A stretch of DNA of 64,000 bases from Bacillota bacterium (GTDB lineage Bacteria; Bacillota; Sulfobacillia; Sulfobacillales; JAIMBI01): positions 1-64,000 of the forward strand of contig JAJZYZ010000004.1 of NCBI GenBank assembly GCA_021797815.1. Reading direction: 5' to 3'. Below the pieces are notes generated by a model. It did not search any database. It was not told where the DNA came from and saw nothing but the letters and a program-made list of their open reading frames with translations. The translations under genes were made by a program, and so were the position numbers. Shown here piece by piece: positions 27,146 to 30,345 of this stretch (positions are counted from its first letter, which is position 1; every line of letters starts with the position of its first letter).

Positions 27146-28147
27146 CTAGTCCTCGGGGTCGGTCGCCGCGGCCGGTTCCAGCGTGGTGGCCGGAATGATG
27201 CCCATCCGTCCCTTCTGATAGTCCTCAAACGCCTGAACGATTTCCTCGTGGCTGTTCATGACAAACGGCCCCCAGTGAAAGATCGGCTCACGGATGGGCT
27301 GCCCCCCCAAGATCAGCACTTCGAGGGTGGGCGATCGACTCGACTGATGCTCGGAAGCCGTTACGGTCAGCCCGTCGCCCTCCCCGAAGAGGGCCAGCTG
27401 GCCCTCTTCAACGTCAACCGAGTGGCCAGGGGGGCCGGCCGTTCCCGACCCTACGAGCACGTAGACCATGGCGTTGAAATTCACGGGCCACGGCAGGCGC
27501 AGCCGCGCACCTGCACTGATGCTCACGTGAGCGTACGTGATGGGCGTCCACGTCGTACCAGGTCCGCGATGCCCGGCGAGATCCCCTGCAATGAGACGTA
27601 TAAGGCTTGCTCCATCATCGGAAGTCAGGAGCACGAGGTTCTGCGCCCCGATGTCCTGATAGCGGGGCGGTGTCCACTTCTTGTCCTGTGGCAGGTTCAC
27701 CCACAGCTGGACACCGTGGAAAACGCCCCCCTTCATCACAAGTTCCTCCGTGGGCATCTCGTCGTGGAGGATCCCGGATCCGGCCGTCATCCATTGGGTG
27801 GCCCCATCGCTGATGAGACCCCCGCCACCGTTAGAGTCGCGATGCCGCATCACGCCGTCCATCAGGTAGGTGACGGTTTCAAAACCCCGGTGGGGATGCC
27901 AGGGAGCACCCTTGGCCTCACCGGGTCCGTACTCAACCGCACCCATATGGTCAAGAAGCAAGAACGGGTCCGTGTAGCGCAGAGACAGCCCCGGACCGGG
28001 AAAGGGGCGTCTGACGGGAAATCCCGCGCCCTCGAGCAGCGACGGCGCGGTCTTCACCTGAACCACGAGGCGATCGCGGGCCACCGCGCGATCAGGGCGT
28101 GCGATCCGGGGCAAAACCAGGAAGTTTTCGACCGTAACTGCGGGCAT
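27146..28147 (-). CDS. Pirin family protein
   Basis: DPFLLLDHMGAVEYGPGEAKGAPWHPHRGFETVTYLMDGVMRHRDSNGGGG...WMTAGSGILHDEMP. Confidence 0.94.
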   Translation of the reverse strand: MPAVTVENFLVLPRIARPDRAVARDRLVVQVKTAPSLLEGAGFPVRRPFPGPGLSLRYTDPFLLLDHMGAVEYGPGEAKGAPWHPHRGFETVTYLMDGVMRHRDSNGGGGLISDGATQWMTAGSGILHDEMPTEELVMKGGVFHGVQLWVNLPQDKKWTPPRYQDIGAQNLVLLTSDDGASLIRLIAGDLAGHRGPGTTWTPITYAHVSISAGARLRLPWPVNFNAMVYVLVGSGTAGPPGHSVDVEEGQLALFGEGDGLTVTASEHQSSRSPTLEVLILGGQPIREPIFHWGPFVMNSHEEIVQAFEDYQKGRMGIIPATTLEPAAATDPED

Positions 28148-28327
28148 TCCAGCACCTCTTCCCCAAAATCCCCACCGCGGCGACGGTACCGTGACCGAAC
28201 CTGGCGCTGAGCGTTACACTTACTGACTAGGTCAGCCGATACGTACTACGTTTTTGACTGTTGCTTACTTTTAGTATGACTGTGTAGCTTGTGCCCGTCA
28301 AGCCCTGGCGAAGGGAGTCCTGTCAAG

Positions 28328-29023
28328 ATGAGTTCGACCCCCGCTCATATCGGGATCGTCGGCGACTACAATCCCGCCAACGAGACGCATCGCTTCACGG
28401 ACGCGGCCTTGGCCGGCCTCGATCCCGCGCCCCGCTTTACCTGGATCCCCACGGAGGCGGTGCCGGACGAAGCGGACCTCCTCACGTTTGATGGCCTACT
28501 CATCGCTCCGGCAAGCCCCTACCGGGACTTTCGCGGCGCGCTGCGCGCCATCCGTACGGCACGGGAGCGGGGTCTGCCGCTGCTTGGCACCTGAGGCGGC
28601 TTCCAACACGTAGTGGTCGACTACGCCCGAAGTGTCCTTCATATCGACGACGCGGACCACGCCGAGACTAATCCTGGCGCGGCGCATCTGGCCGTGACTC
28701 CTCTTTCCTGCTCCATCGTGGGCCAGGAGCAGGAAGTTCTGCTGCTGCCCAACACACGCGCCGCGGAGATCTATGGGACGGCACGGTGCCGGGAGGCCTT
28801 CTACTGCAACTATGGTCTGAATCCCGCCTACCGCGATCCGCTGGAGGCGGCAGGCCTCATCGTGAGCGGCGTCGACGGCGACGGTGAGGTGCGCATCATG
28901 GAAATGCCCGGCCACCCGTTCTTTCTGGGCACGCTGTTTGTCCCTCAGGCTCGATCGACGGGAGAGCGCCCCCACCCCGTTCTGGCGGCCTTCGCGCTGG
29001 CGGCCCGCAGGCACCGGGGCTAG
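28328..29023 (+). CDS. CTP synthase C-terminal domain-related protein, predicted selenoprotein (in-frame TGA at 28592-28594 read as Sec89)
   Basis: ORFs 28289-28594 and 28613-29023 are in the same frame; joined protein MSSTPAHIGIVGDYNPANETH...LPLLGT-U-GGFQHVVVDYARSVLHIDDADHAETNP...EAAGLIVSGVDGDGEVRIMEMPGHPFFLGTLFVPQARSTGERPHPVLAAF aligns with the GATase domain of CTP synthase; TGA replaces nucleophile Cys. Confidence 0.88.
28609..28625 (+). promoter_or_regulatory. Bacterial SECIS-like hairpin
   Basis: CGTAGT-GGTCG-ACTACG, 6-bp perfect stem, loop starting GGTC, base 14 nt after the in-frame TGA. Confidence 0.8.
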
Positions 29024-30345
29024 ACGGCGTCCGGACCTCCCATCGCGGCCGCCGCGGGCGCGGTTCTTCGGCTTTCGGGCACCCGATATCCATGAAAGAG
29101 AGCCATGGCCCCGAGCAGCGCGGCCAGTGGAACCCCGGCCATCAATATCCGGAATCCCATCACGACGGCCGGAGACGCAATGCCGGCGGCGTTGGCATGA
29201 TAGTGGGTGACGGTCAGGATAACGTAGAGCACGAGCGACTCGAGCGTGGTCCCGAAGCGCAGCACAAAGCCGTTCAAGCCGTAGTACACCCCCTCTCGCC
29301 GCTCCCCCACCCTCCGCGCGTCGTCATCGATAATCTCCGCCATGATGATGTCGACCAGCATGAGAAACCCGGAGAGTCCCACGCCAATCACGGCCAGGGC
29401 CGCCACTCCTTCCGCGAAGTTGCGGACTACGAAGAACGGCAGCGCCCCGAGGGTGAGGAACACCATGGAGAGACGGAACGCGCGCCGGGACCCGACACGC
29501 ACGATGAAGCCCGCCCACGGACGCACCAGCAAAATCGCCAGCACGAACGTGACAGCCAGCATGATGGTGAGTCGGCCGTGGGTCACATGCAAGACGTACT
29601 TGGCGAAGAACGGCAGCCCCGCCGGTATGAGCACCAGGACGAACTGGACCAGGAAATTGGTCCCGAGGTAGCGGAGGAACCCCGGCTGGGTCAACGTCCT
29701 TTGAATGGCCGGCTTCAGGGCGAGACGTCTTTCCGGCATGACCGTCCGGCGCGCCGCCGGATGCAGGCCGAACACCAGTCCTATAAAGCCTGCCGTTCCG
29801 ATAATCGCCAGAATGAGGCCCATGGTCGACCAGCCGAAGCGCCCGTACAGAATCGGCGGGGCGGCCACCCCCACCATCAGCGCGGCGATGCCGAAGCCCT
29901 GGCGAAAGCTTTCGACGCGGGCACGCTCATCCAGGGTTTCGAAAATTTCGGGGAACAGACTCGTCCAGTTGATGACCGTCACGAGATAGAAGAGGTCGAA
30001 GAGGGCTACGACCACCAGGAAATACAGAGCCAGATCCGCTCGGGGAACGAACGGGCGCCAAAGAAGCCAGAAGACGAACCCAAGCGGCAGGGTAAACAGG
30101 GCGATGTAGGGGAGCCGACGTCCGAAGCGACTCTTCGTGCGATCCGAGAGCCAACCCACAACCGGGTTTAAGACCGCGTGCCACACGCTCTGCACCGCCA
30201 TAGCTGCCGTGATGGCGCCCAGCGCCGCGTGCAGATGGTCGATATAGAAGAACAGAATGAACGCGGAGAAGGCCTGGGCAAAGATATTGGTCCCGAGGCT
30301 TCCAAGGCCGTACGAAATCGAAAGGCCGCGGCGGCTGTCAGTCAT
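29020..30345 (-). CDS. MFS transporter, GPH (glycoside-pentoside-hexuronide:cation symporter) family
   Basis: SYGLGSLGTNIFAQAFSAFILFFYIDHLHA; NPVVGWLSDRTKSRFGRRLPYI. Confidence 0.88.
   Translation of the reverse strand: MTDSRRGLSISYGLGSLGTNIFAQAFSAFILFFYIDHLHAALGAITAAMAVQSVWHAVLNPVVGWLSDRTKSRFGRRLPYIALFTLPLGFVFWLLWRPFVPRADLALYFLVVVALFDLFYLVTVINWTSLFPEIFETLDERARVESFRQGFGIAALMVGVAAPPILYGRFGWSTMGLILAIIGTAGFIGLVFGLHPAARRTVMPERRLALKPAIQRTLTQPGFLRYLGTNFLVQFVLVLIPAGLPFFAKYVLHVTHGRLTIMLAVTFVLAILLVRPWAGFIVRVGSRRAFRLSMVFLTLGALPFFVVRNFAEGVAALAVIGVGLSGFLMLVDIIMAEIIDDDARRVGERREGVYYGLNGFVLRFGTTLESLVLYVILTVTHYHANAAGIASPAVVMGFRILMAGVPLAALLGAMALFHGYRVPESRRTAPAAAAMGGPDAV

Follow-up and report, generated by a model that had tools for sequence, protein, structure and literature searches.

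An in-frame TGA very probably read as selenocysteine in a Bacillota member of the CTP synthase C-terminal region-related (seleno)protein family

The locus considered here raises two questions: whether a TGA codon within an otherwise open reading frame is read as selenocysteine (Sec), and, if it is, what chemistry this residue might serve on the fold that the gene is predicted to encode. The window, by which we mean the whole 64,000-nucleotide stretch analyzed (contig JAJZYZ010000004.1 of a Bacillota bacterium), contains two ORFs, 28289-28594 and 28613-29023, that share one frame, and from an ATG at 28328 to a TAG ending at 29023 there is a single plus-strand coding sequence (28328..29023) of 231 codons, the sole interruption of which is the TGA of codon 89 (28592..28594, plus strand). 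A preliminary description of this DNA had given these coordinates, the single frame, the length of 231 amino acids, and Sec at position 89, and all were correct when the frame and translation were examined. The sequence GGGAG (28313..28317, plus strand), 10 nt before the ATG, is a plausible ribosome-binding site. Both neighboring genes are on the minus strand and provide context outside the proposed mechanism: a divergent gene encoding a pirin family protein (27146..28147) and a convergent gene encoding an MFS_2 sugar transporter (29020..30345), with a 4 bp overlap. There is also an antisense ORF of 172 amino acids (28496-29014, minus strand) that overlaps the selenoprotein gene and is probably a by-product of its GC-rich coding frame.

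The joined protein matches the NCBIfam profile NF004836 (PRK06186), named "CTP synthase C-terminal region-related (seleno)protein," with 278.2 bits over residues 7-226 against a curated cut-off of 260, and the Sec or Cys that the profile expects at the GxUxG position is present; the family name given in the preliminary description is the right one. Pfam assigns the joined protein to GATase class I, whereas the CTP synthase (PyrG) profiles give only 105-110 bits against cut-offs of 462.75 and 308, and the protein covers only PyrG profile positions 291-529, the N-terminal synthetase domain being absent. In the 2025 deep-Sep study, a new selenoprotein labeled "glutamine amidotransferase (COG0504, PyrG)" is described from Desulfosediminicola ganghwensis, with a TGA codon and with Cys homologs elsewhere (PMC12013277), and a 2026 review catalogs the family as NF004836 with the motif GxUxG (PMC13188914). 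The window protein is like the published example in its family, its GxUxG motif, its one Sec residue, and in belonging to a group with both Sec and Cys members, but it is a Bacillota-affiliated member rather than one from Desulfosediminicola. The selenoprotein family is already catalogued, and the window gene is a well-supported additional member; no functional study of NF004836 was found in the literature searched. Three Cys homologs from Klebsiella (L119, L121, and L123) are annotated as CTP synthase, yet they are NF004836 proteins of 230 amino acids without a synthetase domain, and their genes adjoin a DUF523 gene, DUF523 being another selenoprotein family of deep-Sep. Phage records from Staphylococcus and Moraxella (H17-H19) encode proteins 29-32% identical to the window protein, and no homologs were found on the viral contigs searched.

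If the TGA were a pseudogene lesion or a sequencing error, in which a TGC or TGT had been mutated or misread to leave a truncated, dead protein, it would not be expected to recur, but the same column contains TGA in ten further homologs from eight genomes, of which seven belong to the same class and one is a Thermoleophilia metagenome-assembled genome (MAG) of the Actinomycetota. The gene is held by nine of the 154 genomes of the class, with TGA in eight of the nine, and two of the 154 genomes have two TGA-containing paralogs each. In the translated alignment, all eleven TGA rows, two of which (L082 and L083) are identical proteins, place the TGA at the GTUGGFQ column, with identity down to about 44%. 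The whole family alignment of 18 rows has Sec in 11 and Cys in seven at this column, with no other residue, and when it was compared with 28 CTP synthases the position aligned with Sec89 was Cys in 28/28; the preliminary description had placed the TGA at the GxCxGxQ nucleophile and had proposed examining homologs for Cys or Sec there, and the placement is borne out. Comparison of the window gene with that of a same-genus genome gave dN 0.113 and dS 0.62 for the codons before the TGA, and dN 0.107 and dS 1.15 for those behind it, and the low dN/dS of the latter (about 0.09) indicates purifying selection on the protein that they encode, which also argues against a dead gene. On the protein tree, Sec-forms and Cys-forms of the family stand side by side, and the Sec label must change three or more times, a count limited by several open forks; repeated changes of this kind are the usual pattern of Sec/Cys exchange.

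Directly following the TGA is a bacterial SECIS-like element (28592..28640, plus strand), as the preliminary description had noted, identified by folding, by covariation, and by comparison with a published model. It has a 6-bp upper stem (28609-28614/28620-28625), a 5 nt apical loop GGUCG (28615-28619) that starts 20 nt after the UGA, and a lower stem extending to 28639, and it satisfies the bacterial SECIS constraints printed in PMC13188914. The folding energy of -10.7 to -16.5 kcal/mol is unexceptional against shuffled sequences (z -0.4 to -1.6), and it is the covariation across homologs, rather than the energy, that supports the element: across seven homologs, 95% of cells in the stem are paired, as against at most 48% for slid registers, and two stem pairs are changed on both sides. 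A covarying SECIS is a further observation that a pseudogene or read error does not explain. In a second subfamily (L027, L089, and L090) a stem with the loop GUU forms at about this position. Genomes G418 (L082 and L089) and G429 (L083 and L090), both of the same order, each carry two divergent Sec paralogs with differently shaped hairpins, GUU being the loop in one subfamily. Separately, the homolog L085:1456-2202 (G486:C28) contains an in-frame UAG ten codons past the Sec-column UGA, in a column that is Tyr, Phe, or His in relatives, and has one SECIS stem pair broken; the UAG may be a read error, early decay, or recoding.

The genome to which the window belongs encodes a full-length SelB of 625 amino acids (332 bits) and a Sec-type SelD (362 bits). 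The SelD is itself a selenoprotein, with a TGA in the motif GUGCK (L016:1531-1533) and then a SECIS-like hairpin, and so resembles the window gene in these two features although the enzyme is unrelated. Neither selA nor tRNA-Sec was found on searching the assembly, which is 97.75% complete; eight weak tRNA-Sec matches were checked with ARAGORN and rejected as ordinary Ser, Arg, and Gly tRNAs. The preliminary description had named all four components as ones to look for and had taken absence of selB and tRNA-Sec as evidence against Sec: selB and selD are present, and tRNA-Sec, like selA, is missing from the assembly, with both occurring in the same-genus genome G398. These absences are what favors a pseudogene or error, and also the reading that selA and tRNA-Sec have recently been lost, leaving stranded here a gene that is functional in relatives. 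However, selA was above cut-off in 47 of 61 genomes, G398 included, and in G398 it adjoins hemB. In the window's genome, contig C126 begins partway through hemB, encoding just residues 1-169 of the 326, and it runs collinear with the corresponding stretch of G398 (82% over 6 kb), so that the expected place of selA lies ~850 bp past the contig end. Because C126 breaks in the gene that neighbors selA in G398, the selA gap is accounted for by an assembly break. tRNA-Sec was above cut-off in 13/13 relatives searched, and in G398, one of these, it lies on the tips of two contigs, which is again an assembly break; its absence here is best read as an assembly gap, by inference, whereas the gap at selA is shown by synteny. 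With selB and the TGA-containing selD intact as well, recent loss of the machinery is very improbable, and a decayed gene or read error, which we consider slightly less probable still, is in practice excluded.

TGA is the ordinary stop codon of eight of 12 neighboring genes, and a general reassignment of TGA was rejected on this basis. The same observation bears on the alternative that the UGA is decoded as a residue other than Sec, whether as Trp or by near-cognate read-through, as do the presence of selB and a Sec-type selD and the finding that the aligned residue is Cys in all other members; such decoding is as improbable as a pseudogene. In the preferred reading, UGA codon 89 would almost certainly be decoded as Sec by SelB, tRNA-Sec, and the SECIS just downstream, giving a free-standing protein in which Sec would replace the nucleophile Cys of the class I amidotransferases. 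The preliminary description had favored Sec insertion over decay, and the TGA column, selection, the covarying SECIS, selB, and the Sec-type selD, together with the tRNA-Sec and selA of the same-genus genome, support that preference. Selenocysteine insertion at codon 89 is accordingly near certain on sequence grounds, with actual incorporation being inferred from conservation of the Sec codon, selection, and SECIS covariation; that the protein receiving it is a non-canonical one of the glutaminase fold is very likely, with somewhat less assurance.

An AlphaFold2 model, in which Sec was modeled as Cys, had a pLDDT of 83 and a pTM of 0.85, and its best PDB matches were CTP synthases with TMq mostly of 0.8-0.9, so the window protein is predicted to have the glutaminase fold of class I glutamine amidotransferases. 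It is like the C-terminal glutaminase domain of PyrG in its fold, the position of its nucleophile, and the Gln93 and Glu113 columns, which are kept in the family as in CTP synthase, but unlike PyrG it is without a synthetase domain and contains Sec in place of Cys. Further differences concern the columns of the catalytic His, the catalytic Glu, and the glutamine-binding Arg of PyrG. The first is His in 28/28 CTP synthases and in 0/18 family members (12 Val, five Gln, and one Cys), being Val205 in the window protein (28940..28942); the second is Glu in 28/28 CTP synthases and is Gln in 13 and Glu in five of the family, being Gln207 here (28946..28948); and the third is Arg in 28/28 CTP synthases versus nine Asn, four Ser, three His, and two Arg in the family. 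The Cys-His-Glu triad of class I amidotransferases is therefore not present as such, the nucleophile alone being kept throughout as Sec or Cys. The PGGFG oxyanion loop of CTP synthase is also replaced, by roughly (A/V/S)P(G/A)(S/T)P. In turn, the family has residues that PyrG does not: Cys160 (28805..28807), which is found in 18/18 members and is His in 28/28 CTP synthases; Cys128 (28709..28711), found in 17/18 and Gly in 27/28 CTP synthases; His94 (28607..28609), found in 18/18 and replaced by other residues in the sampled CTP synthases; and His21, which like Arg189 is invariant in the family (all of these codons are on the plus strand). The family passages of PMC12013277 and PMC13188914 that were consulted are silent on the missing catalytic His and Glu and on the invariant Cys160.

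These replacements make the "glutamine amidotransferase" label doubtful for the family, with the catalytic His lost in 18 of 18, the Glu mostly lost, and Cys160 invariant; the class I amidotransferase assignment of the preliminary description thus holds for the fold and is in doubt for the chemistry. The database label would imply that Sec is inserted into a true glutaminase, in which it would act as a stronger nucleophile, and the CTP synthase-like fold and the conservation of the nucleophile, Gln93, and Glu113 are consistent with this. It is nonetheless unlikely, as the His is absent in 18/18 and the Glu in 13/18, the Arg column is mostly Asn, Ser, or His, the oxyanion loop is altered, and no synthetase partner gene was found adjoining the NF004836 gene in the homolog loci compared. 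Nor was any partner gene that might point to a substrate shared across these loci, in which synteny is limited to near relatives, and the Cys homologs on plasmid-collection records (Klebsiella, Methylobacter, and Streptomyces) have no common gene context. For a glutaminase it would be unexpected that the nucleophile is kept, often as selenium, while the base is lost. The replacement of the His, usually the Glu, the Arg, and the oxyanion loop, along with the new and conserved Cys160, Cys128, His94, and His21, points to a non-glutaminase selenol/thiol chemistry, the reading that we prefer and for which we would put the chances at about even. Sec89 would then serve as the attacking nucleophile, a selenol, of a redox or group-transfer reaction, and Cys160, its candidate partner, would probably be the resolving thiol. 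The more specific proposal, that the family comprises selenol/thiol oxidoreductases or transferases built on the amidotransferase fold with Sec89 or Cys89 and Cys160 as a redox pair, is tentative, and we hold it somewhat less likely than the general one.

With the present analysis, a selenoprotein family that was catalogued only recently is extended to a class of Bacillota and to an Actinomycetota MAG. In every member sampled the nucleophile is kept, often upgraded to selenium, and the base is lost, which suggests a new chemistry on a textbook fold, and the name of the family may mislead as to its function.
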